In this document: positions 3,267 through 35,821 of the stretch, piece after piece
Layout of the letters: every line of letters begins with the position of its first letter
Position numbering within the stretch: the stretch's first letter is position 1
IMG/VR virus record: IMGVR_UViG_3300033149_003448
Location: 1 to 35,821 of that record
Length of the DNA stretch: 35,821 nucleotides
DNA from: a virus
Reading direction: 5' to 3' (one strand)
Position numbers and translations under genes: made by a program
Notes under the pieces: model-generated
The model's input: the letters and a program-made list of their open reading frames with translations, nothing else
What the model was told of the DNA's origin: nothing
Databases searched by the model: none

Positions 3267-4361
3267 GTGTCTGACGTAATTAGTCCCTACGCGCTCGGCC
3301 GCGTCCACCGCGCCGATTGCCTGGAGGCGATGGCCGCGCTGCCCGAGGCATCAATCTCGGCGGTAATCACCGACCCGCCGTATGGGTTGGGTTTCATGGG
3401 CCGGAAATGGGATGCCCAGCCGCCCGGCTCCGAAATCCCTGCGGCGATGCTGCGCGTCGCCAAACCCGGCGCGCACCTGGTGGCGTTCGGCGGTACCGGC
3501 GGATGGTTCGGTTGGGGTACGGCGCTCAAGCCGGCGTGGGAGCCCGTTGTTCTTGCCCGCAAGCCACTGGAGGGCGCGGTCGCGGCGAACGCACAAAAGC
3601 ACGGGACCGGGGCGCTGAATATCGAGGCGGGGAGAATCGGAACGACAAAACAAGTTCCCCGCTCGGTCGGGAAGGGGCCAGCGGGGTATGGGGGCGGCTG
3701 GGGGCCGAGGAAGCCGGAACACGGCGGAATGCGCCCGGACATCGGCCGCTGGCCCGCAAACCTGGCGCTTGACGAGGCCGCGGCGGAAATGCTTGACGAG
3801 CAGAGTGGATACCCTCATGGCAACAAAAACCCATCTCCCCGCGGGGGCTATAACGCCACTTGCTATCGAGTAGGTACCAGCGGAGACCGGATTGACGGGG
3901 CGTGTGGTTGTAGCGGCGGCGGCGCCTCCCGGTTCTTCTACGTCGCTAAGGCGTCGCGGTCCGAACGCGATGCGGGGCAGGAAGGCTTTGCGCCCCACCG
4001 AGAGGCCGATCGCAAGAGGGCTAACGGCCCCGGCGGCGATAACCCGCGCAACCGAACCAATATACCCGTCCGGAATTTCCACCCAACGGTCAAGCCGTTG
4101 GCCTTGATGCGCTGGCTGGTCCGCCTAGTAGCGCCCCCCGGCGGAATCGTTCTGGACCCGTTCGCCGGCTCGGGAACCACCGGGTGCGCGTGCGAGATGG
4201 AGGGCGTTGCCTGGTTGGGATTTGACCGCGAGGCCGGATATTGCGAGATTGCCGGTGCGCGCGTGAAATACTGGCGCGCGGTAGCCGAGGCTCGGGGCAA
4301 AGGCCTGACGCCGGTCGAATACCGCGCGGGGCAAAAAACGCTTTTCGGGGGAGAGACATGA
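3267..4361 (+). CDS. DNA methyltransferase, N6-adenine/N4-cytosine (beta class)
   Basis: GTG at 3267 has an excellent AAGGAGG upstream. The 364-residue protein has DPPY (motif IV, residues 36-39) near the N-terminus and FAGSGTT (motif I, 299-305) near the C-terminus, preceded by HPTVKPLALM and LDPFAG. This order is that of beta-class amino-methyltransferases, which use S-adenosylmethionine to methylate adenine N6 or cytosine N4. The central part (about 100-240) would be the target-recognition region. No restriction partner is nearby, so it is probably a solitary enzyme protecting phage DNA. ATGA overlap with the C5 methyltransferase. Confidence 0.92.
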   Translation: MSDVISPYALGRVHRADCLEAMAALPEASISAVITDPPYGLGFMGRKWDAQPPGSEIPAAMLRVAKPGAHLVAFGGTGGWFGWGTALKPAWEPVVLARKPLEGAVAANAQKHGTGALNIEAGRIGTTKQVPRSVGKGPAGYGGGWGPRKPEHGGMRPDIGRWPANLALDEAAAEMLDEQSGYPHGNKNPSPRGGYNATCYRVGTSGDRIDGACGCSGGGASRFFYVAKASRSERDAGQEGFAPHREADRKRANGPGGDNPRNRTNIPVRNFHPTVKPLALMRWLVRLVAPPGGIVLDPFAGSGTTGCACEMEGVAWLGFDREAGYCEIAGARVKYWRAVAEARGKGLTPVEYRAGQKTLFGGET

Positions 4362-5122
4362 ATGAGCTGGTATTATTTGCGGGGGCAGGCGGTGGAATCC
4401 TGGGGGGAATCCTCCTTGGCTGGCGCACCGTCTGCGCTGTTGAAATTGATGCCTACTGCCGAAGCGTCTTGTTTGCGCGGCAAAAAGACGGTATATTATC
4501 CCCGTTCCCCGTATGGGATGACGTTACGACGTTTGACGGACGGCCATGGCGCGGATACATTGATGTGGTATCGGGGGGATTCCCGTGTCAGGACATATCT
4601 GCGGCCGGGCGGGGCGCGGGAATCGGCGGGGAAAGAAGCGGATTGTGGGCCGAGTTCGCCAGAATCATTAGCGAAGTACAACCCCGCTTTATACTCGTGG
4701 AAAACAGCCCAATACTCACTTCTCGGGGGCTTGACCGAGTTCTCGGGGACCTGGCCACGCTGGGGTATGATGCGCGATGGGGAGTGCTGGGCGCTTACCA
4801 CGCGGGAGCCCCGCACCGGCGCGAGAGAATCTGGATTCTGGCCTACCCCCACGGTAAGCGACAGCTGGTTTGTCGGGATTTCCCGGGAGACGGCGCGTCG
4901 AAATATCGACGGGGGGGGGCGGGGCAAAACACAGCTAGCAGCTGTCGCGAAATACCGGGGCGGGGCTGGTGGCCTGAACCCGGAGTGGGTCGCCTGGCTG
5001 ATGGGGTGGCCCATCGGGTGGACCGGATTAGCGCCCTTGGTAACGGACAGGTTCCAGCGGTGGTTAGATTGGTTTGGCGGTTACTGACCGCCCCGGGGGA
5101 TGAGATACATGAAACGCCGTAA
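4358..5122 (+). CDS. DNA cytosine-C5 methyltransferase
   Basis: This 254-residue protein starts LVLFAGAGGGILGG (motif I) and has the catalytic GGFPCQDIS (Pro76-Cys77-Gln78, motif IV), LVENSPIL (motif VI), PHRRERIWI (motif VIII) and a C-terminal RVDRISALGNGQVPA (motifs IX-X). It transfers methyl groups from S-adenosylmethionine to cytosine C5. It is short for the family, so the recognition domain is small. Nearly the whole gene is overlapped in another frame by an ORF at 4362-5087 that also carries family-like motifs. Confidence 0.92.
   Translation: MNELVLFAGAGGGILGGILLGWRTVCAVEIDAYCRSVLFARQKDGILSPFPVWDDVTTFDGRPWRGYIDVVSGGFPCQDISAAGRGAGIGGERSGLWAEFARIISEVQPRFILVENSPILTSRGLDRVLGDLATLGYDARWGVLGAYHAGAPHRRERIWILAYPHGKRQLVCRDFPGDGASKYRRGGAGQNTASSCREIPGRGWWPEPGVGRLADGVAHRVDRISALGNGQVPAVVRLVWRLLTAPGDEIHETP
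4362..5087 (+). CDS. Overlapping-frame phage protein within the C5 methyltransferase gene
   Basis: The ATG lies 4 bases after the methyltransferase ATG (ATGAATG), so both can use the same GGGGGAGAG ribosome-binding site. The 241-residue product contains GDSRVRTYL, ESAGKEADCGPSSPESLAKY, SWKTAQYSLLGG, TWPRWGMMRDGECW, GFWPTPTVSD and LNPEWVAWLMGWPIGWT. I recall these motifs from a phage protein family encoded near C5 methyltransferases, usually annotated loosely as methyltransferase-associated; no function is established. Chance reproduction of so many motifs is unlikely, hence a dual-coding call. This rests on memory of the family, not on a search. Confidence 0.65.
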   Translation: MSWYYLRGQAVESWGESSLAGAPSALLKLMPTAEASCLRGKKTVYYPRSPYGMTLRRLTDGHGADTLMWYRGDSRVRTYLRPGGARESAGKEADCGPSSPESLAKYNPALYSWKTAQYSLLGGLTEFSGTWPRWGMMRDGECWALTTREPRTGARESGFWPTPTVSDSWFVGISRETARRNIDGGGRGKTQLAAVAKYRGGAGGLNPEWVAWLMGWPIGWTGLAPLVTDRFQRWLDWFGGY

Positions 5123-5309: not shown

Positions 5310-5560
5310 CCGAGCCCCCTGCGGTTCGCCGGGCGCTGCGCGACGGGGTCGTGCATGTAGTTCAGGTAGACTACAATCGCCGAAAAATTTGGAAAAAAAT
5401 CCGGCGGCACTGGAACAGCCTCAGCGCCAGGCAGCGCCGCGTCGCCGAACTGCATAGCGGACAAGGATATACGTTCTCCAGCGTCGCCTGGATTATGGGC
5501 CTGAAACGCTCCACGATTACGACGCACTGGATGCGCATACTGCGGAAAATCGACCTGTAG
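5306..5560 (+). CDS. HTH transcriptional regulator (LuxR/sigma region 4-like)
   Basis: ATG at 5306 overlaps the previous stop (ATGA). The 84-residue protein ends in LSARQRRVAELHSGQGYTFSSVAWIMGLKRSTITTHWMRILRKI, which matches the layout of the GerE/LuxR or sigma-region-4 helix-turn-helix: LS..Q..V..L, then A..MG...STI..H...I..K. It is a candidate activator or repressor of phage transcription, located at the head of the late unit ahead of terminase. The regulated promoter is not known. Confidence 0.75.
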   Translation: MTEPPAVRRALRDGVVHVVQVDYNRRKIWKKIRRHWNSLSARQRRVAELHSGQGYTFSSVAWIMGLKRSTITTHWMRILRKIDL

Positions 5561-6849: not shown

Positions 6850-8132
6850 CCGCGTTTCTGATGGCCCTCAGCGTGACCCTACCGTTCTGCCCGCACCCTG
6901 GGCAGCGAGCCGTGCTGGAGAGCCCGGCGCGGTATCGTGACGTGAGCTGCGGGCGGCGTTGGGGCAAGACCGCGGTCGCGTCGGCAGAGCTATTGCGCTA
7001 CGCGCTTCGCGGGTCCAATCAGCGCGTCTGGCTCGTGACCCCGATCTTCAAGCAAGGTAACGAGGCGTGGAACCTGAACGAGTATAGTCTGCTCCCGATG
7101 CTGCGCGAAGCCGAGCGGCGCTCGGGCCAGACGATTATCGCCGACCTCTCCAAGGCCGACCGCCGTATCGTGCTGGCGAACGGCTCGATAATCGAGGCGC
7201 GCACCGGCGACCGAGAAGAAAACCTGCGCGGGGCCGGTCTGCACCTGCTGGTTATCGACGAGGCCGGGCAGCTTCCCGCGTCGGCCTGGCACGCCCTGGA
7301 GCCCACGGTTGCGCAGACGCGCGGCCGCGTGCTCCGCCTGGGAACGCCCCGCGGGCGCAACTGGTGGTACCGCGAGTGGAAGCGGGGGCAGGAGCCCGAC
7401 CGCGCGGAAACGCACGAGTCCTGGAGTATGCCGTCTGATACCAGCCCGTACTTCCCCGCCGAGAGCATGGCTCAGGCGCGCCGGAACCTGCCGATAGATT
7501 ATTACCGACAGGAATACCGGGCGGAGTTCCTCGAGTCTTCCCAGATGGTATTCCTCGGCCTGGACAAGTGCCTGACGGCGGCGGACCGACGGGAGCCCCC
7601 CGTCACGGGGCACCGCTACTGTCACGGCCTGGACCTCGCCAAGGCCCAGGACTGGACCGTACTGCTCACGCTGGACATCACCGACTCGCCCGCCAAGGTG
7701 GTGCAAATCAAGCGGGTACAGCGTATCGAGTACAATCAGCAGGCGGACATCATCGCCCCGCTGGTCAAGTCGTACGGCGGCGGCGTGTGGGCCGACTATA
7801 CCGGCGTCGGCGGCGCGGGGGTAGAGATGTTCGAGATGCGCGGTTTGCGCATCCACCGCTTCACGCTCACCCCCGACAGCAAGCGCGACGTAATCCAAAA
7901 CCTCCAGGTCGGCATCCAGACGCGCGGGCTGCTGATACCCACCGGCGGCGACTTCGCCCCGCTGGTCTCGGAGTTGCGCGACTACGAGTACCGGGTTACC
8001 GCTGGCCGGCTGACGTTCAACGCGCCGGACGGGCTGCACGATGACTGTGTTATCGCCTTGGCCCTGGCCTACTGGGGGCTCCAGCGCGGCGGCGCGGGGT
8101 TCCAGCGCGACCTGACCTACGGGATGTTTTGA
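6846..8132 (+). CDS. Terminase large subunit
   Basis: ATG at 6846 is chosen because of the ATGA overlap; the frame is open further upstream, but that part overlaps the preceding gene. The 428-residue protein has Walker A CGRRWGKT (35-42), Walker B LLVIDEAGQ (Asp138-Glu139), a coupling LGTPRG segment and a C-terminal RNase H-like nuclease (GLDLAKAQDWTVLLTLD, then DGLHDDCVIALALAYW). It drives DNA into the prohead and cuts concatemers. Length and motifs are complete. Confidence 0.93.
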   Translation: MTAFLMALSVTLPFCPHPGQRAVLESPARYRDVSCGRRWGKTAVASAELLRYALRGSNQRVWLVTPIFKQGNEAWNLNEYSLLPMLREAERRSGQTIIADLSKADRRIVLANGSIIEARTGDREENLRGAGLHLLVIDEAGQLPASAWHALEPTVAQTRGRVLRLGTPRGRNWWYREWKRGQEPDRAETHESWSMPSDTSPYFPAESMAQARRNLPIDYYRQEYRAEFLESSQMVFLGLDKCLTAADRREPPVTGHRYCHGLDLAKAQDWTVLLTLDITDSPAKVVQIKRVQRIEYNQQADIIAPLVKSYGGGVWADYTGVGGAGVEMFEMRGLRIHRFTLTPDSKRDVIQNLQVGIQTRGLLIPTGGDFAPLVSELRDYEYRVTAGRLTFNAPDGLHDDCVIALALAYWGLQRGGAGFQRDLTYGMF

Positions 8133-10453: not shown

Positions 10454-11449
10454 GTGGCTGACGGTTATCTTCTCATCGGCGACGTGGCGGTCAATCCCGA
10501 CCTGGTACTGGACTTCGCCCAGGCGCGGTATAACGACCTCACCGCCGAGGTGTTCAACCGGGCCGGCGGCGCGTTCGAGTTCCTGCCGCCCTCGCCCAAG
10601 GTCCACCCTGGGGCAAACGTCAACGCCCCGACGCTCAAGATGGTGGGCGCGTCCTCTCGCTACGACCTGACCAGCGAGACCGACGCCACCGCGACGCAGG
10701 CGCCCGACAGCGCTCAGCGCCGGATGCCCGTGCTCGCCCAGGTCAACGGCCCCTACAAGTTCGCCGACCATGCCATCCGCGGATACGAGATGTCCGAGGA
10801 GCAGGTGGCGGCCGAGCTAGGCCGCCAGATGGCCGAGCGCATCTTCAATTACCGGAAGCTCGCCGCGTACTACGCAATCAAGGGCGCGGCCGGCGTGGTG
10901 ACATCTCACGTCGAGACCGAGACCGACGCCTTCGACGCCGTGGACTTCCTCGACGCCAAGGCGAAGCTCGGCGACGCTTCCAGCGGCCTGGTCACCGCAA
11001 TCATGCACAGCAAGCAGTGGTATAGTCTGCTGAAGGATATCGGGAACACGGCCAACATCACCGGTGACCGCCTGGGTGAGATGGTGTTTATCCAGGGCGG
11101 AGTCCCGGCGCTGGCCGGTATGAACGTTATCCTGGACGACCAGGTGCTGACCGCCAGTGTATCGGCGGGAACGCAGTACGACTGCCTCCTGCTCGGCCCC
11201 GGCGCGCTCAAAATCCAGCCGGCAACTGGGTTCCCGCTTGTGACGATGAAGCTGGACATCTCCATCGGTCGCGTTTTCAAAATCGTGACCGAGGACCACT
11301 TCGCCGTCGGCGTGGCGGGGATGGATTACGACGGCGGACAGTCGAACCCGACGACTGCCCAGCTGGCCGCCGCGGCCAACTGGGGCACCGCATACTCTCA
11401 CGACCATCGGGAAGCCAACTGGGCAATCTTCCGGACGGTGGAAGCCTAG
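10454..11449 (+). CDS. Major capsid protein (HK97-fold type)
   Basis: GTG at 10454, 2 bases after the scaffold stop. The 331-residue protein fits HK97-like capsids: an E-loop-like region early, a helical spine (EEQVAAELGRQMAERIFNYRKLAAYYAIKGA), IMHSKQWYSLLKD, then VIQ/GMNVILDDQV and a C-terminal VTEDHFAVGVAGMDY strand. Members I know of this subgroup have such IMHS and D-DD motifs. A strong hairpin follows the gene. Confidence 0.87.
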   Translation: MADGYLLIGDVAVNPDLVLDFAQARYNDLTAEVFNRAGGAFEFLPPSPKVHPGANVNAPTLKMVGASSRYDLTSETDATATQAPDSAQRRMPVLAQVNGPYKFADHAIRGYEMSEEQVAAELGRQMAERIFNYRKLAAYYAIKGAAGVVTSHVETETDAFDAVDFLDAKAKLGDASSGLVTAIMHSKQWYSLLKDIGNTANITGDRLGEMVFIQGGVPALAGMNVILDDQVLTASVSAGTQYDCLLLGPGALKIQPATGFPLVTMKLDISIGRVFKIVTEDHFAVGVAGMDYDGGQSNPTTAQLAAAANWGTAYSHDHREANWAIFRTVEA

Positions 11450-11512: not shown

Positions 11513-13750
11513 GTGAAGCCGGCGGTGCTCATAGCGAACGGCCCCAGCGCCGAGGGCTACCAGCCTCCGGATGACGCGTTCGTCGTCTGCCTTAACGACG
11601 GCTTCAAGCGCCACAGGTGCGACGCGGTGATGTCTGTGGATTGTCCGCCGGACCTGAAGGATGCCTGGGTGGCATGGCGCGGAATCAAGGTGATGTCCGA
11701 CCGCAACGCCGCTTACCCCGCGGCCCGCGACGAACGCGGGCGGCGAATCAAGGAGGATATCCGCCTGTTCCCCTGTGACCACATAATGCGCAAATACCGC
11801 AGCTCTACCGCCTGCGCCCTGGCGTGGCTTACCGCCGAGGGATACCGCCGGGTGACGATGGTGGGGGTTGACGCGCTGTTTGGCGGGGGGAAGGCGGGCG
11901 CGCTGTACACGCGTGACGGTCACGCGGATTTTCTGCGCAGGGCGTCTCTCCGGCTTCCGGAAGGGCTTTTCCTCTGGCGTAACGGCAAGGAGGTTGCGCT
12001 TGATGAAACGTTCTTCCGGCGCCTGGGTCGTTTTGTCCGGGCGGCTACTACCGCGACCCCGCGGGCCGATGCCCCCAAGCCCGACCCCGCTACGTGCGCC
12101 ATTCCCCAGCGGCTGGTCGAGTTTGACCCTTCGCCGCGCTGCACCCGCGCGTGTGAGTTCTGCGCGCCGGGTATACCCGCGGGCCGGCGGAGCCAGAAGC
12201 GATGCCTCACCCTGCGGGCGCACAATCGCGTAATTGACCAGCTTGCCGAGGCGGGCTATAACCGGGCCGACCGGTGGCTGTGCTACTGCGGTCACGGCGA
12301 ACCGCTACTTAATCCGCGGCTGCCCGCCATGCTCCGCTACGCCCGGCGACAACTCCCCGCCTGCCGGATGGTGCTCTATACCAACGGCGACAAGCTCACC
12401 GCCGAACTATGCTGTACGCTGGAAGCCCTGGACCTGGATACCCTGATTTGGGATTGCTACGACGACCGCAGCGCCCGCAGGGTGCCCGCCGTCATTGCAG
12501 ATAGCTCGCTGGACCCCGCCCGTGTGCGGGTCAACGACTATCGCCGGGGGTTCCCAAGCGCCTCTTCCCGCTGCTCGGCGGTTCGGGCCGCAGATACCGG
12601 GCCGTGGCGCGACAAGCCGTGCGGGATGCCGGACGGCAAGCTCTTCTTTACCGACGACGGCAAGGGCGGTTCGTGCTGGCTGCTCTGTTGCGAGTGCTAC
12701 GACCGCAAGGTCCGCTGGCCGGGCAACCTCTCACCCGTAGAGCTTAACGCCCGCGCCGATTTCGCGCGCATCCGTGACGGGCTTTTATCGGGACAGCGTG
12801 CGCTGTCCCCCGCCTGCAAGCGCTGTGACCGTGACGGAGGTCACCCCAAGGGCTTCGGCCACGTCCCCGCGCTCGTGGACTCGGGTTTCTGGCCGGTCCC
12901 CGCACCGGTCCCCGCCGCCCCCAAGGGCCGACGCCTCGTAGTGCTCCCGGTCAACGCGCGATGGGCGCAGCACGCGGCCGCCGTGCTGGACACCATAGAC
13001 CGCGCATCGGTAATGCCCGGCAAGTCCCTGGTACTGTGGGGCGACGACGACCAGCCCGGGTGCCCCGATTTCCTGCGTGGCGATACCCGCGAAGTATGGG
13101 AGTTCCCCGGCTCGCTGGGGTGGCGCGGCATCAGCCGCGGAATCGCCAAGGCGTTTCTGTATGCGCTGAGAGAGAAGTACGACTGGGTTATCAAGCTCGA
13201 CACGGACACGGCGATTCTGCGCGGGGGCTGGGATGCCGTTCTTTGCTCTGAGTGCCCGCCGGACACCCAGGCCGGGACATACATGGACGCAAGCATTACC
13301 GGCCAAATCCCTAACAACTCGGACGGGGTTGCGGACGGGCTCTTTAACGGGCAACTGGCAGCGCATTGCCGATGGGCGCGGCGCTTTGTAGAGCGCGGCT
13401 TGCGTCGCTGGGACCATATACAGGGCGGCTGCTACGTTATCGGCGCAAAGGCGCTGGAGCGTATCGAGCGCGTAGTAGGGCTGTCCGCCGAAGACCAGGA
13501 GCACGTCCCCGAAGAGCAGCGAGTCGGCGAAGACGTATATATCGACACCAAGTGCAAGGTAGCCGGGATTCCCCAGCGGGATATTCTGCAGTTGCGAATT
13601 TGGTTCCGGGAGCCGCGCGTCAATCCGCTGACGGAACAACATATCATGCACCAGCGCGATTCGCTCGGTGTGGTGGCCGTCCACCCCGTCAAAGACCTGG
13701 CGCTGCTGCGTCGGCTGGCGGAATACAACCCGCTGGTGGCCCGCACATGA
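11513..13750 (+). CDS. Fusion: sialyltransferase/DUF115-like + radical SAM/SPASM + GT-A glycosyltransferase
   Basis: GTG 11513 is preferred over TTG 11507 because CGGAGG (11499-11504) is 8 bases away. Three domains fill 745 residues. Residues 1-180: VLIANGPSAEGY and STACALAWLTAEGYRRVTMVGVDAL, as in Rossmann-like sialyltransferase/DUF115 proteins. Residues about 195-450: CTRACEFC gives the radical SAM triad Cys210, Cys214, Cys217; GHGEPLLNP matches the GEP motif; further Cys clusters (CWLLCCEC, CKRC) look like a SPASM auxiliary iron-sulfur site. Residues about 475-745: a glycosyltransferase with KLDTDTAIL (Asp563, Asp565 as DxD). The substrate is unknown; capsid or surface-glycan modification is inferred from the cassette. 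ATGA overlap with the next gene. Confidence 0.8.
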   Translation: MKPAVLIANGPSAEGYQPPDDAFVVCLNDGFKRHRCDAVMSVDCPPDLKDAWVAWRGIKVMSDRNAAYPAARDERGRRIKEDIRLFPCDHIMRKYRSSTACALAWLTAEGYRRVTMVGVDALFGGGKAGALYTRDGHADFLRRASLRLPEGLFLWRNGKEVALDETFFRRLGRFVRAATTATPRADAPKPDPATCAIPQRLVEFDPSPRCTRACEFCAPGIPAGRRSQKRCLTLRAHNRVIDQLAEAGYNRADRWLCYCGHGEPLLNPRLPAMLRYARRQLPACRMVLYTNGDKLTAELCCTLEALDLDTLIWDCYDDRSARRVPAVIADSSLDPARVRVNDYRRGFPSASSRCSAVRAADTGPWRDKPCGMPDGKLFFTDDGKGGSCWLLCCECYDRKVRWPGNLSPVELNARADFARIRDGLLSGQRALSPACKRCDRDGGHPKGFGHVPALVDSGFWPVPAPVPAAPKGRRLVVLPVNARWAQHAAAVLDTIDRASVMPGKSLVLWGDDDQPGCPDFLRGDTREVWEFPGSLGWRGISRGIAKAFLYALREKYDWVIKLDTDTAILRGGWDAVLCSECPPDTQAGTYMDASITGQIPNNSDGVADGLFNGQLAAHCRWARRFVERGLRRWDHIQGGCYVIGAKALERIERVVGLSAEDQEHVPEEQRVGEDVYIDTKCKVAGIPQRDILQLRIWFREPRVNPLTEQHIMHQRDSLGVVAVHPVKDLALLRRLAEYNPLVART

Positions 13751-14466
13751 TAGCCGCCGTAATCACCGCTCGTAACGGCTCGGCCAGCCGGATGAAGGAC
13801 AAGAACCTGGTCGAGGTCCACGGCAAGCCGCTGGTGGCTTGGCCGCTGATAGCCGCCCGAGAGGCTGATACGGTAGACGACATTGCGCTGCTGACCGATG
13901 ACCCGCGGATTGCGGCGGTCGGCCGGTCCTGGGGCGCCCGGATAATCCACGAGCCCGACCGCGGCGACGAAGGCAACCACCCCGAGGCTATCCGCTACGC
14001 GACAGCCGCCCTGCTGGCCCGCCACGGCAACGACCTGGAGGCCGTCTGCGTTCTCCTCGGCAACACCGTAATGACTGATGGCCGGACGATAGATGCCTGT
14101 ATCTCCGCTCTGCGCGCCCGGCCGGAGGCCAGCGGCGCGATGACCGTGTGGACCGCGGCCGACGACCACCCGTTGCGCGCGTTGCAAGAGGGCCCGGACG
14201 GCTGGCTGGTCCCCTACGGCGACCCCGCCCCGGTCTCTTCCCGCCGCCAGGACTACCCCGAGGTGCTCTACTACGACCAGGGGCCCTGGTGCTTCCGGCC
14301 GGAGTGGGCCGAGCGCGGCGGTGGTCCCCGGCCCTGGTCCTGGGTGGGGCCGCGGGTGATGCCCGTGCGCCGGCCCTGGGTAGCCGGCCGCGACGTTCAC
14401 GGCCCGCTAGACCTGTGGATAGCTGACCGCTGGTTATCTGACCTGCCCGAAAGGCAACGCAAATGA
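13747..14466 (+). CDS. CMP-sugar (NeuA-like) cytidylyltransferase
   Basis: The real start is ATG 13747, overlapping the fusion gene stop; the open frame further upstream is a shadow. The 239-residue protein starts AAVITARNGSASRMKDKNL, matching the ARxGSxxxxxKN nucleotide-binding signature of CMP-sialic/KDO-type synthetases, followed by GKPLVAWPL and LLTDDPRIAAVGRSWGARII. The enzyme should activate a 2-keto-sugar acid as the CMP-sugar. Sugar identity cannot be read. It would supply donor to the adjacent sialyltransferase-like domains. Confidence 0.82.
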   Translation: MIAAVITARNGSASRMKDKNLVEVHGKPLVAWPLIAAREADTVDDIALLTDDPRIAAVGRSWGARIIHEPDRGDEGNHPEAIRYATAALLARHGNDLEAVCVLLGNTVMTDGRTIDACISALRARPEASGAMTVWTAADDHPLRALQEGPDGWLVPYGDPAPVSSRRQDYPEVLYYDQGPWCFRPEWAERGGGPRPWSWVGPRVMPVRRPWVAGRDVHGPLDLWIADRWLSDLPERQRK

Positions 14467-15104
14467 GATGGGCGCTAGTTGGCTCCGGTCCCGGCGCGCC
14501 GCGCTTCGCGCGGGAAATCGACGCCTGTGACGTAGTGATTCGCATCAACTGCTGGCCGCGCGGCGAAGCCGGCGACAAGTGGGATGTTTGGGCCAGCCCC
14601 TTCCAGGACTACATGGTCGAGGGCGTATTGCGCGAGGTCGGCTCGGAGCGGGTGCCCGGCGAACTCTGGTTCACGATTCCGGAGGGGTTGCCCGACCCCT
14701 GCGCTGACGGCCGCTCCTGGGGGCGGGCCCGCAAGCTGGCCGCCGACGCCGACAACTGCCAAGTACTCCGGGTAGCCCCGGAACTCTACTCCGCCGTGGG
14801 CCGAGCGGTTAGCGACGAGGCCCGTCGGGCAGCAGCGCCTACTACCGGATTTGTGGCTCTGCGCATGGCCTTGGAACAGGGGCCCGACGAGTTGGTCCTG
14901 GCTGGCTTCGACTCGGCGGTCAGTTCCGACCGCGGCCGCTGGGGTCCGTGGTACGGCCAGCGGATGTATTCGGCCCGCTGGTTCAGTGTGCACCACGATT
15001 TTCCTGCCGAGGACCGGCTGATTGAGCGATGGTTGCGCTCGCGCGAATTCTGCGGCCACACGTTTGCGGTAACTCGACCGGTATGGTTACGGTGCGGGGC
15101 GTGA
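14463..15104 (+). CDS. Sialyltransferase/DUF115-like putative glycosyltransferase
   Basis: ATGA overlap at 14463. The 213-residue protein has the same plan as the N-terminal domain of the 745-residue fusion: ALVGSGPGAPRF (nucleotide-binding loop), VVIRINCWP, and TTGFVALRMALEQGPDELVLAGFDSA. The R-x-N and TTG...AL...L.GFD patterns resemble bacterial GT29/GT42-like and DUF115 proteins often found in phages. With the CMP-sugar synthetase next to it, glycosyl transfer from a CMP donor is the best inference. Confidence 0.72.
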   Translation: MRWALVGSGPGAPRFAREIDACDVVIRINCWPRGEAGDKWDVWASPFQDYMVEGVLREVGSERVPGELWFTIPEGLPDPCADGRSWGRARKLAADADNCQVLRVAPELYSAVGRAVSDEARRAAAPTTGFVALRMALEQGPDELVLAGFDSAVSSDRGRWGPWYGQRMYSARWFSVHHDFPAEDRLIERWLRSREFCGHTFAVTRPVWLRCGA

Positions 15105-15355
15105 TGGTGCGCGTCTACGGCAAGCCCGACTGCGGGCTATGCGAGGCGGCGAAACAGAAGCTGGCCGCCATGGCGGTCCCGTTCGAGGCCAGAGACATCC
15201 GGCCGTATACCATACATCACAACGGCTGGCGTACAAACGGCAGCGTTGACATTCTCGCCGTCTATACACAATCCGGCACGTTGCCGGTCATCGAAATCGA
15301 CGGCGAATATATGACTTACCCGGAGGCTATGCGCCGCCTACGGAGGGCAAACTGA
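15104..15355 (+). CDS. Glutaredoxin-like protein
   Basis: ATG 15104 (TGATG overlap) gives MVRVYGKPDCGLCEAAKQKL, with the thiol-disulfide CGLC motif right after the first strand, then the cis-Pro segment GTLPVIEIDGEYMTYPEAMRRL. At 83 residues it has the usual glutaredoxin length. In-frame ATG 15083 is less likely because it overlaps the previous gene further. It could reduce disulfides or support the radical SAM enzyme of the same cassette; that link is inferred from position. Confidence 0.85.
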   Translation: MVRVYGKPDCGLCEAAKQKLAAMAVPFEARDIRPYTIHHNGWRTNGSVDILAVYTQSGTLPVIEIDGEYMTYPEAMRRLRRAN

Positions 15356-22267: not shown

Positions 22268-22631
22268 CGGCACGGAGTTTGACGTACGGCCCGCCGGCCT
22301 GGGGCCGGAGAGCGACCGCGCGTTTGAGATGCTCTCAGAGCTTCGGGATGGCGCAGAGACAAACAGCATCAAAGTCAAGCGGTTCTTGTACGAGGTGCTG
22401 AAGATTTGCGCGCCCGACGGCGTGGCGGACAACCGCGCGGCAACCGCGTTGATAGGGCGGTTCGATGAAATTATCGGCGACGCATTTCCCGGCGTTGTTG
22501 ACGTTGCGCCGGAGGGCGAATCAAAAAACGCCGAAAGGCCCGGAGACTCAAGCGGTGGCTCCGGGCCGGACTCCAAAGCGTCGGCCTCGACCCCGGCCGA
22601 TACGGAATCGGAGATGCGCGCGAAATCGTGA
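22245..22631 (+). CDS. Tail assembly chaperone, zero-frame product
   Basis: ATG at 22245; the 128-residue protein starts AKYRLSDGTEFDVRPAGL and continues in a helical region (AFEMLSELRDGAETNSIKVKRFLYEVLKICAP). It sits between tail tube and tape measure, the place of gpG-type chaperones that coat the tape measure. After residue 94 the frame enters low-complexity Ser/Gly sequence, where a -1 frameshift site diverts some ribosomes. Confidence 0.78.
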   Translation: MAKYRLSDGTEFDVRPAGLGPESDRAFEMLSELRDGAETNSIKVKRFLYEVLKICAPDGVADNRAATALIGRFDEIIGDAFPGVVDVAPEGESKNAERPGDSSGGSGPDSKASASTPADTESEMRAKS

Positions 22632-22747
22632 CGGGCTTGGTGGTCTGCGGGCGCTGGCCTTCGTGGCGTGATTACGACGCCGCGCTGCACCCGCGCGCGC
22701 CCGACGGCAATGCGCTCCAGGTACTTGGCGGGGCGATGTTCGGGTAG
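22245..22747 (+). CDS. Tail assembly chaperone, -1 frameshift fusion product
   Basis: Reading zero frame to AAC at 22527-22529 and then slipping back one base gives continuous coding to TAG at 22745-22747, about 167 residues. The -1 extension (RLKRWLRAGLQSVGLDPGRY, then GRWPSWRDYDAALHP...) is protein-like, whereas the zero-frame tail is low complexity. This is the gpG/gpGT arrangement of lambda-like phages. A GTG at 22628 in the extension is probably not a separate start. Confidence 0.8.
22523..22567 (+). promoter_or_regulatory. Programmed -1 ribosomal frameshift signal
   Basis: The heptamer A AAA AAC (22523-22529) is in the correct zero-frame phase (tcA AAA AAC). After a 7-base spacer there is a perfect 9-bp hairpin: GGCCCGGAG (22537-22545) with CTCCGGGCC (22559-22567) around a 13-base loop. 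Slippery site, spacer and stimulatory stem all meet the textbook design. Confidence 0.9.
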
Positions 22748-22756
22748 AGGTGGGAT

Positions 22757-23821
22757 ATGGCCGAAGCGGTCTTCAGGGTTCGCACACCGGGCGCGACGCG
22801 CGCCGCGCGGGCGATGGGGCGGCTGGCCCGCGGAATGCGCGCGACGGTCGGTCAGGCCAAGCGGATGTCGGCGGGGTTGTCTGCGCTGGGCGGCCGGCTG
22901 CTGAGCTTTCGCGGTCTCCTGGCGAGCGCGGGCGTTTACGCCGTGGGGCGGTTCGTCCGCGAGTCCATGAATCTGGCCTCCGGCCTGGACGATGCCACTG
23001 CGGCATTTGAGCGCCTGGCCGCCGCGCGCGGCCTGAAAAACGGTGCGCAGATTTTGCGCGACGGCGCCGCGGCCATGGACTACATGATTAGCAAGGCCCG
23101 CGTGGCGTCTATGGGGGTGCGCCTGTTCGGGGCCAATACCCAGCTTACCGGCGAGCAGCTTGTCACCGCGATGAAATACGCGCGGTGGCTCTCTGACAAG
23201 GCGCTGATACCGATGGACGAGGCCGTCGAAAAGGTCACCGGCGGCCTTACCTCGATGCACAGCATTACCTTGAAGGGAATGCTGCTGAACCTCGATGCAG
23301 AAGGCGCGGTTCGGGAGCACGCCAAGGCGCTCGGGGTACAGGCGTCGGCGCTTTCGTTCGCGCAGCGCAGCGCGATAAAGCTCAACCTGATTATAGATTC
23401 CATGAAGGAAAAAATGAAAGCCGCCGGCGACCCGACGCTGGACGCGGCGGACAAAATCAGTCAGCTTGGCGCCGCGTGGGAAGACCTCAAGACTACGCTT
23501 GTCAGGGGTAGGGTCGGCGAAATTCTGGGCCAGGCCGCCCAGGGGTTGACCGCACTGCTGCGTATGGCCGAGGGGGAAGATTTTTTCCCCGAGCGCGTTG
23601 AGGGCCTATCGCCGATGGTCGAAAGGCGCCTGGGCTACGGGGGGGCGCACCGCACGGCGGGCACGGCGGCGCTCTACGCGTCGCGCGCGCGCGAAGCCTT
23701 CCTTGCCGCCGGCGGGCTGGGCCCGCTGGGGTGGTTGCTCGCCGGCCGGGAAATCGGCCAGGCACCGGCGGTTTTCCCTGACGCCAAAGTGCACGTGCGC
23801 GCCGCGCCGGGGGGCTCATAA
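22757..23821 (+). CDS. Tape measure protein (short)
   Basis: ATG at 22757 with a GAGGTGGG site upstream. The 354-residue, mostly helical protein has a basic Ala-rich N-terminus, a hydrophobic segment (LLSFRGLLASAGVYAVGRFVRE), and the conserved tape-measure block around ASGLDDATAAFERLA...KALIPMDEAVEKVTGGLTSMHSITLKGM. Position after the frameshifted chaperone fits. At about 0.15 nm per residue this predicts a tail of only about 50 nm. Confidence 0.83.
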   Translation: MAEAVFRVRTPGATRAARAMGRLARGMRATVGQAKRMSAGLSALGGRLLSFRGLLASAGVYAVGRFVRESMNLASGLDDATAAFERLAAARGLKNGAQILRDGAAAMDYMISKARVASMGVRLFGANTQLTGEQLVTAMKYARWLSDKALIPMDEAVEKVTGGLTSMHSITLKGMLLNLDAEGAVREHAKALGVQASALSFAQRSAIKLNLIIDSMKEKMKAAGDPTLDAADKISQLGAAWEDLKTTLVRGRVGEILGQAAQGLTALLRMAEGEDFFPERVEGLSPMVERRLGYGGAHRTAGTAALYASRAREAFLAAGGLGPLGWLLAGREIGQAPAVFPDAKVHVRAAPGGS

Positions 23822-24231
23822 TGGCTACCATGGCCGTATACGGCGGTACGACGTTCACCTCGCCGAGGCCGTCAACCGACGCGACCAACTTTTTCGCGTA
23901 TGGGTTTTCGTCGATTCGCCCGACGACGCATCGGCTCAAGGAGTGGGTATACGCCGGGTCAGACGGCGTCAGCGTCGTTCGGTTCGGGCTCGACTACGGC
24001 GAGCTGACGATGGTCGGCCACGTCGAGGGCAATTCTCTTGCCAACCTCGAGTCGGCAAAAACCACGGTGGAGAACCTGCTGACCGGCTCGCCGAGCTCGC
24101 TCACCGACGTTTACGGCACGACCACGTATACCAACGTCATTATGACCGGGTTAGAGTGGGGACGCCACTACTCGCTTTCCTCCGGTCGCCACTGCGCCGA
24201 GTTTACGATTACGTTCCGTAAGGTGCAATAG
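23821..24231 (+). CDS. Distal tail/baseplate protein, 136 aa
   Basis: ATG at 23821 overlaps the tape measure stop. Beta-rich sequence (TTFTSPRPSTDATNFFAYGF..., WVYAGSDGVSVVRFGLDYGELTMVGHVEGNSLANLESAKTTVENLL, HCAEFTITFRKV). The pattern resembles small tail-tip proteins (Dit-like or tail-tube fold). Placement directly between tape measure and the large tail protein supports a distal tail role. Confidence 0.65.
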   Translation: MATMAVYGGTTFTSPRPSTDATNFFAYGFSSIRPTTHRLKEWVYAGSDGVSVVRFGLDYGELTMVGHVEGNSLANLESAKTTVENLLTGSPSSLTDVYGTTTYTNVIMTGLEWGRHYSLSSGRHCAEFTITFRKVQ

Positions 24232-26396
24232 TGGCCATTCTCACCGACGCCCCGGTTTTCCGCGTCGATACGGCGGAGGCGTGGACGGAATCAAGCGACC
24301 TGAGCAAGGCCGACTGGACCGAGGCGGCAAATATGGTGCCGGTCGACTTCCACAAGCGCGAGGGGCCGGAACCCAATACGCTGATAGTACGGGCTACATA
24401 CGACCCCGGATTGAGCGGCCCGGCGTATCCTTCCAGCGTCGTCCGCAACGGATACGAGCGGCGGCCGGACGGCAGCGACAACGACCTTGTGCTTCCGGCG
24501 GTCAGCGTTGGCAACGTGACCGGGGGGCTGCCGCCGTTCTCGCTTGTCCGCCTGTACGACGTACCGGCCGGCGCAACGCGCTTTGTCGGTATCGTCACGT
24601 CGTTCAACTGGCACTTCCCGCCGGGGCAACCGGAGTATTGTATAATCACCGTTGCCGAAATCGCCCGCTGGCACATGGCGCGCATCGGCGTATACGGTCA
24701 ACGTATTTGGCAACACCTGCAAGAAACGTCGGCCTGGCTGACCAATACGTTGCCAGTGTACAACGAGGGGGACAAGCCCGACCAGCGGTGGAAGGACGGC
24801 GGGGAAGGGGACGACTCCGCCGACCTGTCTCACGTCCCCCCGCTGCTCAACACGCTGGACGGCTCACAGCACACCGATGGCAAGGACTGGAGCGGATTTT
24901 GGACTTACGGCGACATCTGGAACGCGCTCCGGCGGGAATACAACCTGACCGGGAACGACGCCGACGGCTACGCGCAGGGCAACGGCGCGGTGTCCACTAG
25001 CAAATATCTGGTGTGGCCCGAGGCGATAGTGGGGGGCACGGCTCCCGGCGAGCCGACGCTGGAGCGGCTTTTCTACGACTCCACCGGCGCGGATAACAAG
25101 GCGCTCGATATGGCGCTGGGCGGGATGTCCCTGTGTGAGGCGATAGATACTATCGTCACACGCGCCGGCGGGCTCTCCTGGGCGTGCGAGTGGAACGATA
25201 CCAAACACAAATACGACCTTTACGTCTTTTTGACAAGCGACACCGACGCGTCGTTTGACGGCACCGACGCAATCACGCTCAGCCGAGGCGCGCTGGACGC
25301 CTCGGTTGGCACGTCGCCGCCCGACGTTGCCGGTGGCTCGCTGACGCTCGACTGGAACGACGCGCGAAACAGCATCAAAGCGCTGGGCGCGAAAAAGCGT
25401 TTCGAGGTCACGCTGTCAACCGCGGATGACACGCTCAATTTCGGCTGGACCGCATCCCAGCAGGCCGAATACATTACGGAGCTTGCCGCCGGGCGTCGAA
25501 CGGAACGCTTCCCCGACGTATTTTGCACCTATCGGATTGCGGAGAACGCGACCGACAACCAGGTATACTGGGACCCGTTTTTCGTGGATGAGGATTTCGA
25601 CGGCCGGCGTCCGATTCTGCCGGAGATGCTTTCGCGGGTACTGGCCAGTGACGAGGCTGGCACGGTTCGCCCGGTCTCGGTCGAGATACACGTTTGGCGC
25701 TCGAAGGACGGCGGCTCGACGTGGGAACCCCTGCACGGCGTTCCGGTCGACGTACGCCCGGACGGCTCAATCTGTCTCGGTAACGAGGCGAGAGTCAAGC
25801 GCAGCTACGTTACCGACGACGACAAGACGGTCACCGACATATTTACCTGGGACGGCAGTTCGACGCCGTACGATATCCGCGTCACGATTGCCGTTGAGTC
25901 TACCAACCGCCTGACTACCGCCACGTCGCCGCTGCAGGCCTCCGGGCGGGCTCAGCCGGGAACCTACTGGCCTACGCTTGAGATGGTAGAGGATGCCGGG
26001 GACCGCTTCCGGGGCGACTACCGTTCACAGGCCATACTCTATTCGTATGACGCCGACGGCGAGGGCGGATACGAGCCGCGGCTGAACAAGGACGAGGGGG
26101 CCAATACCTGGGGCGACCACGAATACGGGTCGGGGACGCCGGAGGCGATTCGTAATGACCAGGCCGCCCTGGGGGCGGTGGCCCAGCGGATTCTGGACGC
26201 GCGCGCGCGCCCGAGGGTGCACGGCGAGCTGGTGATTCCGCCGCACGGTATCTCCTGGACGCTCCGGCCGGGAGACTATATCGACAAACTGACCGGCGGC
26301 GGTGGCCGTCCCGACGTACAGCTGAACGCGGTGGTCAACGGCGTCAGTTATACTAGTCTGGACAGTACGGACCTTGCTATGCGGGTGGGCTTCTAA
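24231..26396 (+). CDS. Tail hub/baseplate protein, 721 aa
   Basis: GTG at 24231 overlaps the previous TAG. Large beta-rich protein following the distal tail gene, the usual position of the central hub (Tal/gp27-like). Segments such as FSLVRLYDVPAGATRFVGIVTSFNWHFPPGQPEYCIITVAEIARW (a hub-type barrel) and SLCEAIDTIVTRAGGLSWACEWNDTKHKYDLYVFL fit. The last part (GELVIPPHGISWTLRPGDYID) is like other baseplate hubs. No peptidoglycan-hydrolase domain is recognised. Confidence 0.7.
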   Translation: MAILTDAPVFRVDTAEAWTESSDLSKADWTEAANMVPVDFHKREGPEPNTLIVRATYDPGLSGPAYPSSVVRNGYERRPDGSDNDLVLPAVSVGNVTGGLPPFSLVRLYDVPAGATRFVGIVTSFNWHFPPGQPEYCIITVAEIARWHMARIGVYGQRIWQHLQETSAWLTNTLPVYNEGDKPDQRWKDGGEGDDSADLSHVPPLLNTLDGSQHTDGKDWSGFWTYGDIWNALRREYNLTGNDADGYAQGNGAVSTSKYLVWPEAIVGGTAPGEPTLERLFYDSTGADNKALDMALGGMSLCEAIDTIVTRAGGLSWACEWNDTKHKYDLYVFLTSDTDASFDGTDAITLSRGALDASVGTSPPDVAGGSLTLDWNDARNSIKALGAKKRFEVTLSTADDTLNFGWTASQQAEYITELAAGRRTERFPDVFCTYRIAENATDNQVYWDPFFVDEDFDGRRPILPEMLSRVLASDEAGTVRPVSVEIHVWRSKDGGSTWEPLHGVPVDVRPDGSICLGNEARVKRSYVTDDDKTVTDIFTWDGSSTPYDIRVTIAVESTNRLTTATSPLQASGRAQPGTYWPTLEMVEDAGDRFRGDYRSQAILYSYDADGEGGYEPRLNKDEGANTWGDHEYGSGTPEAIRNDQAALGAVAQRILDARARPRVHGELVIPPHGISWTLRPGDYIDKLTGGGGRPDVQLNAVVNGVSYTSLDSTDLAMRVGF

Positions 26397-34351: not shown

Positions 34352-34684
34352 ATGGCAAAGCGCCCAACAGTGACGGTCGAGATTCCGCCGCCGGTACGGC
34401 CCGAAGAGATAAGCAGCGTTACGGCCTACGACCTGGACGGCCGCTGCAACAAGTCCTGTCCCTTTTTGGCGCACGGCGACCCGTGTCAATACTGCACGCA
34501 AGGTTGGGCCGAACGGGGCGAACTGGTACCGATGGCGCGGACGGACCGCGCAGGCTCCAGCTACGGATTTGGCTCCGGTGACGGCGATGGCAACGGCGAC
34601 GGCTGTGGCGACGGCTTCGGCGACGGCTACGGCCATGGTTCCGGTTCCGGTAGCGGTTCCAGAGATAGTTCCGGCAACGGTTAG
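34352..34684 (+). CDS. Cys-rich protein with C-terminal Gly-Asp/Ser repeat
   Basis: ATG 34352 after GAGGAG (spacing 5); GTG 34325 is an in-frame alternative. The 110-residue protein begins KRPTVTVEIPPPVRPEEISSVTAYDLDGRC, then CNKSC...DPCQYC, a likely zinc site. From residue 69 a repeat (FGSGDGDGNGDGCGDGFGDG...) runs to the end. The repeat DNA matches the array in the phosphoesterase gene. Function unknown. Confidence 0.65.
   Translation: MAKRPTVTVEIPPPVRPEEISSVTAYDLDGRCNKSCPFLAHGDPCQYCTQGWAERGELVPMARTDRAGSSYGFGSGDGDGNGDGCGDGFGDGYGHGSGSGSGSRDSSGNG
34558..34681 (+). repeat. GGC-NNC hexanucleotide array at a gene 3' end
   Basis: About 124 bases with six-base period, Gly at every second codon, alternating with Asp, Ser, Tyr or Cys. 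Same unit and same coding phase as the arrays at 2638-2760 and 35035-35490. The gene stop comes immediately after the array. Confidence 0.85.
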
Positions 34685-34741: not shown

Positions 34742-35035
34742 ATGGCAAGGCAGGGGAAGTACGTGATTGTGCGGACCTATTCCGCGGGGGTATTTGCGGG
34801 GGAACTGGAGTCGAGGCAGGGGCGCGAGGTTGTTTTGCGGAACGCGCGCCGGCTGTGGTTCTGGCGCGGCGCGGCGAGCTTGTCACAGTTGGCCGTCAGC
34901 GGGACGAGCAAGCCCAACGGCTGTAAGTTTCCGGCGGCCGTCCCGCGCGTCACGCTCCTAGAGGCAATCGAGATTCTCGACGTGACCCCGGCGGCTCGGG
35001 CGAGTATTGAGGCGGTGCCGGTATGGACCGCATAG
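34742..35035 (+). CDS. DUF6948 phage protein
   Basis: ATG at 34742 after GGGAGGGAGA. The 97-residue protein (KYVIVRTYSAGVFAGELESRQGREVVLRNARRLWFWRGAASLSQLAVSGTSKPNGCKFP...VTLLEAIEILDVTPAARASIEAVPVW) matches what I know of DUF6948, widespread in phages and of unknown function. The next gene overlaps by 13 bases and is Gly-rich; I recall Gly-rich repeat proteins next to DUF6948 in other phages. Confidence 0.88.
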   Translation: MARQGKYVIVRTYSAGVFAGELESRQGREVVLRNARRLWFWRGAASLSQLAVSGTSKPNGCKFPAAVPRVTLLEAIEILDVTPAARASIEAVPVWTA

Positions 35036-35499
35036 GCGACGGCTGCGGTGACGGCTTTGGCTCCGGTGACGGCGACGGCTCCGGCTATGGTTGCGGCGAC
35101 GGCTCCGGCTATGGTTGCGGTGACGGCTCCGGCTCCGGCTACGGCTACGGTTCCGGCCCTGGTTCCGGCTCCTACTACGGCGACGGCGGTGGCTACGGCT
35201 GCGACGACGGCGGTAGCGGCGATTCCGGCTCCGGTTCCGGCCGCGGTGACGGCTCCAGCTCCGGCTCCAGCTCCGGCTACGGCTCCGGCGACGGCTCTGG
35301 TTCCGGCCACGGTGACGGCTCCGGCTCCGGCTACGGCGACGGCCCTGGTTCCGGCCGCGGTGACGGTTCTGGTTCCGGCCACGGTGACGGCTCCGGCTAT
35401 AGCTCCGGCTCCGGCCACGGCTCCGGTTCCGGCCCCGGTTCCGGCTCCTGCTACGGCGACGGCGGAGGCGCCTTCTGCGGCGACGGCTACGGTGAGTGA
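35023..35499 (+). CDS. Gly-Asp-Ser-Tyr repeat protein, 158 aa
   Basis: ATG at 35023, overlapping the DUF6948 stop. Almost the entire protein is an alternating Gly-X repeat (X = Asp, Ser, Tyr, sometimes Cys or His). No signal peptide and no folded domain. Possible roles are metal binding by the acidic residues, phase-separating linker, or adhesion; all speculative. Its stop overlaps the DUF4326 GTG (GTGAGTGA). The opposite strand also has a long open frame, but that is a by-product of the repeat. Confidence 0.65.
   Translation: MDRIGDGCGDGFGSGDGDGSGYGCGDGSGYGCGDGSGSGYGYGSGPGSGSYYGDGGGYGCDDGGSGDSGSGSGRGDGSSSGSSSGYGSGDGSGSGHGDGSGSGYGDGPGSGRGDGSGSGHGDGSGYSSGSGHGSGSGPGSGSCYGDGGGAFCGDGYGE
35035..35490 (+). 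repeat. Long GGC-NNC hexanucleotide array
   Basis: About 450 bases of six-base periodic sequence (GGC then GAC, TCC, TAC, TTC and others; some units GGT). Longer internal repeats such as GGTTCCGGCCACGGTGAC recur near 35310 and 35373. It is the largest of three arrays in the genome and the likely source of the others. Confidence 0.9.
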
Positions 35500-35821
35500 G
35501 CCCAAGCGTATCCGCCTCTCGCGCCGCAAGGGCTGGCGGCTGCCGCCGAATGCGGTCAACGTCGCGCGTCCCTCGCGCTGGGGCAACCCGTTCCGGGTCG
35601 GCGTGGACGGGACGGCGGCCGAGTGTGTGAGCGCTTACCGAGAGCTGTTATCCGGCCGCATCAAGCCGCGTGCGTCGGTTGAGCCAATCGTACAGCTCCA
35701 GCGCCGTCGGTGGGTATTAGACCACCTCCGGGAGCTGCGCGGCCGGGACCTGGCCTGCTGGTGCCGGCTGGACAAGCCGTGTCACGCGGACGTGTTGCTT
35801 CAGGTGGCGAACGCGCCGAAA
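35492..35821 (+). CDS. DUF4326 protein, N-terminal part (cut by window end)
   Basis: GTG at 35492 overlaps the repeat-protein stop. The product reads SEPKRIRLSRRKGWRLPPNAVNVARPSRWGNPF..., with the VxVARPSxWGNPF signature of DUF4326, and continues without a stop to the window end. The frame continues at base 115 of the window to a TGA at 133-135 after the 114-base overlap, giving about 116 residues. Function of the family is not established. Confidence 0.88.
   Translation, partial: MSEPKRIRLSRRKGWRLPPNAVNVARPSRWGNPFRVGVDGTAAECVSAYRELLSGRIKPRASVEPIVQLQRRRWVLDHLRELRGRDLACWCRLDKPCHADVLLQVANAPK
35708..35821. repeat. Terminal direct repeat, right copy
   Basis: Identical to bases 1-114. See the left copy; the unit length without it is 35,707 bases. 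Confidence 0.95.

Follow-up and report, generated by a model that had tools for sequence, protein, structure and literature searches.

Known systems and organization of the locus

Phage-encoded glycosylation is already known. In mycobacteriophages, glycans detected on the capsid and tail tube proteins of virions are ascribed to phage glycosyltransferases (Freeman et al. 2023, as cited in PMC12619734). Modified DNA bases are frequent targets of phage glycosyltransferases (PMC12619734), and the pelagiphage enzymes have been read as acting on the host surface (PMC7029224). Two enzyme groups outside phages are also relevant here: BtrN from butirosin biosynthesis (PDB 4m7t), a radical SAM enzyme that oxidises a hydroxyl of an aminocyclitol (PMC9012708), and the GT29 sialyltransferases, the eukaryotic members of which have been traced to bacteria by published phylogeny (PMC5811610).

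The window, i.e. the whole analysed stretch of 35,821 nucleotides, is a complete phage genome (35.8 kb) with a 114-bp direct terminal repeat. The gene order is TerL, portal, scaffold, major capsid protein (MCP), cassette, and then head-tail genes. The cassette lies directly 3' of the major capsid gene, as originally predicted and as confirmed by MCP matches in Pfam and PHROG. The ORF coordinates likewise confirm the length of the fusion, the genes following it and their overlapping ends, each start within the cassette overlapping the preceding stop (ATGA or TGATG). The genes are as follows.

10454..11449, plus strand: major capsid protein (context, directly upstream of the cassette); Pfam PF20036 (Gp13-like) 1.3e-21, PHROG 247 6e-23
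11513..13750, plus strand: three-part fusion of 745 aa (GTG start) with an N-terminal domain, a BtrN-like radical SAM/twitch domain and a GT-A-like domain; single open frame, homologous radical SAM-glycosyltransferase fusions in two other phages
13747..14466, plus strand: NeuA-like CMP-sugar synthetase; Pfam PF02348 5.8e-11, over the cut-off; clade profile against 6ifd, 9e-39
14463..15104, plus strand: small GT29-type sialyltransferase-like protein, 213 aa, with sialylmotifs L, S and VS; Pfam PF00777 over the cut-off, PDB sequence matches, fold
15104..15355, plus strand: glutaredoxin with CxxC being CGLC (alternative upstream start at 15083); Pfam PF00462 4e-8, 33.7 bits against a cut-off of 22.9

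Two DNA methyltransferase genes are also present in the window.

We interpret the cassette as a mobile glycan-decoration unit in the late structural region (probability about one half). It probably decorates either the virus particle or the host surface. The mycobacteriophage system differs in that virion glycans are reported there, whereas here they are predicted; it is not known to include a radical SAM enzyme, a CMP-sugar synthetase or a GT29 enzyme.

Recurrence and position of the cassette

The search for the same fusion in virus contigs, proposed in the original prediction, yielded two further examples with 52-55% identity, and thus the fusion is not a chance event. In all three phages (the window, G001 and G004) it occurs together with NeuA-like and GT29-like genes. 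The capsid genes of G001 and G004 differ, and the only genes shared according to phmmer are those of the cassette and one small early protein; the same set being found in two otherwise different phages indicates that the cassette works as a unit. Additional tailoring genes in these two phages encode an FkbM methyltransferase, a sulfotransferase, or a GT9 heptosyltransferase-like protein.

In all three phages the cassette genes overlap and belong to the late region. The capsid had been suggested as the target; the cassette indeed follows the MCP gene in two of the three phages, but the MCPs belong to different families, and G001 has the cassette upstream of its terminase gene. Hence, the assignment to the late structural region is firmer than the assignment of the capsid as the target.

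The same chemistry could instead be directed at LPS, capsule or exopolysaccharide on the host surface, thereby keeping other phages out or aiding release; this is a real possibility, though not the outcome we expect. Consistent with it, relatives of the radical SAM domain in plasmids and in a fecal contig are found in surface-polysaccharide, aminocyclitol or other sugar-gene loci, and within the phage collection the NeuA-like protein is most closely related to one from a Moritella capsule locus. Moreover, G004 may be temperate, since it has an integrase, and temperate phages often alter O-antigens. On the other hand, there is no integrase match in the window or G001, and we saw no flippase and no membrane transferase in any of the three cassettes. 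The location of the genes between the capsid and head-tail genes, their overlapping ends and the lack of sigma-70 promoter-like sites between positions 9400 and 17500 of the window fit late expression, which argues against a host-surface target.

Beyond these three phages, no match to the fusion, to its first and third domains or to the GT29 gene was found by tblastn in 50,697 phage records, and single-sequence scans of viral contigs with the fusion and the capsid protein found nothing. A second scan with the DxD pattern yielded 60 contigs; searching these stretches with profiles gave no new relative. The scan of bacterial representative genomes revealed only a weak relative of the radical SAM domain; as it relied on two short peptide patterns, bacterial copies of the fusion may well exist outside its reach. 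The record MT835743.1, labelled as a phage, was rejected as a phage example, as it carries V-ATPase genes. The original statement that no phage system with this fusion had been described thus holds for the phage records and for searchable papers: neither a radical SAM enzyme joined to a glycosyltransferase nor a CMP-sugar synthetase paired with a GT29 sialyltransferase was encountered in any described phage.

Domains of the fusion protein

The following features were assigned within the fusion.

11513..12037, plus strand: domain 1 (about residues 1-175), in this phage only; no Pfam match at E values up to 10 and no relative among the retrieved loci
12095..12922, plus strand: radical SAM and twitch domain (residues 195-470); Pfam PF04055 at the cut-off, profile match to BtrN (4m7t/4m7s) over the whole length, E 2.5e-15
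12140..12163, plus strand: CX3CX2C motif (C210, C214, C217), predicted radical SAM cluster ligands; aligned with BtrN C16/C20/C23, invariant in the three phages
12569..12826, plus strand: R353 (12569-12571) and auxiliary-cluster C370, C392, C435, C438; aligned with BtrN R152 and C169, C187, C232, C235
12929..13732, plus strand: GT-A-like glycosyltransferase domain (residues 473-740); the two phage relatives share 60% and 52% identity with it
13199..13684, plus strand: GT-A core motifs, namely DxD 563-565, G-loop QGG 637-639, xED (GED) 672-674 and candidate C-His H724; invariant in the three phages

Judging by its sequence, the radical SAM part is related to BtrN along its full length and has a one-cluster twitch domain. 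The PF04055 score of the fusion only just exceeds the cut-off (29.6 vs 29.5 bits), its relatives scoring higher, while the whole radical SAM and twitch domain can be aligned with BtrN, all seven cluster cysteines being conserved. Arg152, also retained, is presumably catalytic in BtrN, a role that does not enter the argument here. The phage protein deviates from BtrN in having His in place of Tyr62 (according to the alignment) and in its fusion with a glycosyltransferase-like domain and, for the protein of the window, with the N-terminal domain as well.

The Cys210/214/217 and GHGEP motifs are present as originally described, while the SPASM-like cysteine clusters reported with them turned out to be a four-cysteine twitch pattern. 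A SPASM domain was rejected, since the seven-cysteine pattern is absent (CX2C at 435-438 is not followed by CX5CX3C) and only four auxiliary cysteines, forming a single cluster pattern with the BtrN spacing, align with BtrN. Action of the radical SAM domain on a protein side chain, followed by that of the sugar enzymes on the product, is unlikely. Many radical SAM enzymes with auxiliary clusters do modify peptides (PMC9012708), and a glutaredoxin is adjacent, but such peptide-modifying enzymes usually contain SPASM and two auxiliary clusters, whereas the nearest relative here, a cyclitol dehydrogenase, has one; nor did we see a precursor peptide or a recognition domain.

Radical chemistry on a sugar, one of the two substrates predicted (sugar or peptide), is supported by the sugar-oxidising ancestry of the domain evident from the BtrN match. 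The reaction itself does not follow from this ancestry, as relatives are encoded in loci for polysaccharides and for other sugars. No cyclitol synthase was seen in the gene list of the window.

The third domain is glycosyltransferase-like, as suggested by the four core motifs of the GT-A fold (DxD, G-loop, xED and C-His, as defined in PMC7185993): D563-D565, QGG, GED and H724 are all found. The proposed DxD glycosyltransferase thus stands as far as the motifs are concerned, but the domain has no Pfam or PDB sequence match, and the AlphaFold model of the full-length fusion is poor (pLDDT 39).

For domain 1, the proposed similarity to sialyltransferases or DUF115 did not hold, as no significant family match was obtained (in particular, none to DUF115/MptE-like PF01973 up to E 10). 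Homology to GT29 was not accepted: the match to the GT29-like profile is weak and partial (35 columns), and the same profile run against the genome did not recover domain 1. It is at most a putative glycosyltransferase.

NeuA-like CMP-sugar synthetase and sialyltransferase-like protein

The NeuA-like protein belongs to the cytidylyltransferase family (PF02348, 43 bits vs the cut-off of 22.6), and the NeuA-clade profile matches the CMP-NeuAc synthetase 6ifd. It shares the fold family and the N-terminal CTP-binding region with CMP-acylneuraminate synthetases (NeuA/PseF). Unlike them, it has LLGNTVM in place of the usual QPTSPLR-like stretch, forms a separate clade, and scores far below the NCBIfam cut-offs for PseF (equivalog, 59.4 vs 205.7 bits) and KdsB. 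The clade is present in eight other virus contigs. Two of them carry NeuB, which points to keto-deoxy acids as substrates; in one contig a dehydroquinate-synthase-like cyclase adjoins. Two more contigs have a separate radical SAM gene close to the gene of the NeuA clade; in all, a radical SAM gene occurs in 5 of 9 NeuA-clade records vs 4 of 50 other virus records.

The phage had been predicted to make and transfer a CMP-activated acidic sugar. Activation and transfer agree with the NeuA-like and GT29-like proteins, but making does not: no match to NeuB or to a KDO8P/DAHP-type synthase was found in the window, G001 or G004, and since the genome is complete, the sugar can only be activated once supplied.

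The identification of the second predicted sialyltransferase-like protein is borne out by both family and fold. The PF00777 (GT29) score is 28.6 bits vs the cut-off of 23, the relatives having 32-38 bits, and four phage proteins exceed the cut-off. All 16 matches in the PDB profile search are sialyltransferases (E 3.5e-10), as are the first 12 Foldseek PDB matches of the predicted fold (pTM 0.75), which include ST6GALNAC2, ST8SiaIII, ST6Gal1 and CstI. The model aligned with ST6Gal1 (Z 10.4, rmsd 3.7, 164 residues aligned) has the GT-A variant 2 fold. Sialylmotif L is VGSGPG...ID..DVVIRIN, sialylmotif S is PTTGFVALRMAL, and sialylmotif VS contains the candidate catalytic His.

14994..15011, plus strand: sialylmotif VS, H178-x4-E183, kept in the three radical SAM cassettes; assigned by motif only, in a loop of low model confidence

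In contrast to known GT29 sialyltransferases, the phage protein has only about 200 residues and no clear sialylmotif III, the corresponding region aligning poorly and having low model confidence. As in bacterial GT29 enzymes, the disulfide cysteines of motifs L and S are absent (PMC5811610).

Glycosylation of phage DNA as protection from restriction is very improbable: phage glycosyltransferases with such targets and the two methyltransferase genes would fit it, but in known or found cases glycans are the substrates of GT29 and NeuA-type enzymes, the cassette is in the late structural region away from replication genes, and no base-hypermodification gene was seen on going through the gene list.

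Proposed function and significance

The analysis establishes the gene content, families, motifs and conservation of the cassette as a unit. As a glycan-decoration unit, it may function in the following way. The NeuA-like protein would join CMP to a host-derived 2-keto-3-deoxy sugar acid (sialic, legionaminic, pseudaminic, Kdo or a relative), as its family suggests, and the GT29-like protein, judging by its family, its motifs and its fold, would move the sugar from CMP to an acceptor glycan, His178 probably serving as the base. Another sugar may be added by the GT-A-like domain of the fusion. By analogy with BtrN, the radical SAM/twitch domain would oxidise one hydroxyl of the added sugar or the growing glycan, using the 5'-deoxyadenosyl radical and the auxiliary cluster as an electron acceptor, and the resulting keto group would mark or tailor the glycan. 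The relatives probably also attach methyl and sulfo groups. As the most likely acceptor we regard a virion protein encoded in the same late region.

A more specific version, somewhat doubtful at present, is that the fusion would be a coupled enzyme of a new kind, in which the BtrN-like radical dehydrogenase oxidises the sugar during its transfer by the unclassified GT-A domain, while the minimal GT29 enzyme of the cassette caps the glycan with the CMP-activated acid sugar. To our knowledge, this would be the first phage glycan made by radical chemistry.

If the proposed function is correct, radical chemistry would join the ways in which phages tailor glycans, and the cassette would provide a compact enzyme with an assayable substrate, as well as a phage-borne minimal GT29 enzyme, which would bear on the origin of eukaryotic sialyltransferases.

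Organization of the late region

The window (GC content 65.5%) is very probably a complete genome, since the virus contig of 35,821 bases ends with the same 114 bases with which it begins, as a direct repeat. The late genes follow the order terminase large subunit, portal, scaffold, major capsid protein, cassette, and head-tail and tail genes, and the composition of the cassette region resembles that of the remainder of the genome. The phage collection contains no close relative, the best match of the capsid protein there being about 30%. Gly-Asp-Gly-Ser-rich repeats, with units of 12 and 18 bases, are observed at 2640-2770, 34548-34660 and 35035-35500 in three separate genes (one phosphoesterase and two small ORFs); the tract is missing from the homologue of this phosphoesterase in phage G001 (locus L014).

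The original prediction of a sugar and radical SAM cassette next to the capsid gene was confirmed in its coordinates and features by re-reading ORFs and gene ends in the window. The fusion gene starts at GTG 11513 (alternative TTG 11507) and ends at 13750, and each of the three genes 3' of it starts inside or at the stop codon of the preceding gene.

Recurrence of the cassette

The fusion is also present in G001 (IMGVR_UViG_3300028883_000067, 46,854 bases), found by a pattern scan, and in G004 (IMGVR_UViG_3300029267_003811, 35,659 bases, terminal repeat of 134 bases), found by an alignment-based scan with the synthetase. The gene order is fusion, FkbM methyltransferase, sulfotransferase, GT29, NeuA, followed by terminase and portal, in G001, and major capsid protein, fusion, GT29, NeuA, FkbM, GT9-like in G004 (genes named by Pfam, FkbM of G004 by similarity to G001). 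According to phmmer, the window has early genes in common with G001, and tail genes and the helicase with G004, its capsid gene is without counterpart in either, and G001 and G004 overlap in the genes of the cassette and in a single family of small early proteins. This recurrence with differing gene sharing is the strongest evidence for the cassette being a functional unit that passes from phage to phage. The large terminase of G001 (22332-24617, L013) contains an intein-like insertion running from 'MANGTFKPISEVRPGDKVIGF' to 'VVWGIGSKN'.

Domains of the fusion protein

The radical SAM domain of the window fusion scores at the Pfam cut-off, and the profile built from the fusions of the three phages aligns with BtrN along its entire length (E 2.5e-15). 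In particular, C16, C20 and C23 of BtrN align with C210, C214 and C217 of the fusion, C169, C187, C232 and C235 with C370, C392, C435 and C438, and R152 with R353; the seven cysteines and R353 are invariant in all three phages. BtrN belongs to the twitch enzymes, has a single auxiliary cluster and catalyzes the two-electron oxidation of 2-deoxy-scyllo-inosamine (PMC9012708), and hence the domain, initially described as SPASM-like, should be labelled twitch. One of its nearest relatives, on a Sodalis plasmid, is encoded two genes away from 2-deoxy-scyllo-inosose synthase.

Domain 1 is found only in the window phage; it has no family match and shows only partial similarity to a profile of GT29-like proteins. 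The G001 and G004 fusions have in its place a short segment, which matches neither Pfam nor PHROG and seems to be present also at the end of domain 1; it could serve as a docking module.

Segment 'MxNPAGRxVEV...LGF', 5' of the radical SAM domain in the three fusions
L019 (locus with the G004 fusion), 7405-7480
L013 (locus in G001), 5329-5400
Window, about 11966-12037

Domain 3 has no sequence match in Pfam or PDB. The GT-A core is defined by four active-site features (PMC7185993), and domain 3 carries all of them, namely DxD (563-565), the glycine loop (637-639), xED (672-674) and the C-terminal histidine (724), invariant across relatives of 52-60% identity, which suggests that it is GT-A-like.

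Synthetase, small transferase and glutaredoxin

Family and profile comparison identifies the CMP-sugar synthetase as NeuA-like. The small transferase exceeds the Pfam GT29 cut-off and contains sialylmotifs L, S and VS, and all PDB matches to its profile (16/16) are sialyltransferases. Sialyltransferases also rank first for its predicted fold (pTM 0.75), though the fold alone is unspecific, as the scores of MptE-like folds and of thiamin pyrophosphokinase folds come close (Z about 9); thus the putative GT29 assignment is carried by sequence and motifs. GT29 was absent from all 14 control genomes. Bacterial sialyltransferases were placed outside GT29 in a review (PMC4202792), but members of this family were later reported from certain proteobacteria (PMC5811610). 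A phage protein named GT29 is already listed in a library of viral protein models, so the occurrence of such a gene in a phage is not novel as such. The glutaredoxin gene is missing from the G001 and G004 cassettes.

The wider NeuA clade

Besides the three fusion phages, the clade of the window synthetase comprises six further virus contigs, in two of which (L017, L021) a GT29-like partner adjoins the NeuA-clade gene. NeuB is encoded in L087 and L090, and separate radical SAM genes lie close by in L017 and L090. Radical SAM genes occur in 5 of 9 NeuA-clade records vs 4 of 50 other virus records, which serves as a hint rather than as a test, since three of these five genes are related copies of the fusion and the records differ in length.

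In contig L018, an HpcH/HpaI aldolase gene lies between two cytidylyltransferase genes (290-1006 and 4064-4750), one of the GNTVM clade and the other canonical. In L020 (4979-11558), the NeuA-like gene is flanked by a sugar-cyclase-like gene of the dehydroquinate synthase family and by oxidoreductases (hydroxyacid dehydrogenase, short-chain, Gfo/Idh/MocA), a possible cyclitol pathway. Two phage-collection records look bacterial: L002 (MT835743.1), with a V-ATPase operon, and L005 (FPLJ01000048.1), with a Moritella capsule locus.

Possible function

Judging by their families, the NeuA-like protein would activate an acid sugar with CTP and the GT29-like enzyme would transfer it, while the GT-A-like domain of the fusion would add a sugar and the radical domain would oxidise a hydroxyl. 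The acid sugar is probably host-derived, since no synthase for keto-deoxy acids (NeuB and KDO8P/DAHP families) was matched in the complete window genome.

The late-region position of the cassette in three phages favours virion proteins as the target, with a probability of about 0.5. Modification of the host surface, to which we would give about a third, is favoured by the relatives found on plasmids and in a capsule locus and by the integrase in G004. Phage glycosylation cassettes are already known; no paper on this radical SAM-glycosyltransferase fusion or on a phage cassette with NeuA and GT29 was found in the open-access library searched, and among such cassettes the present one is a new form.
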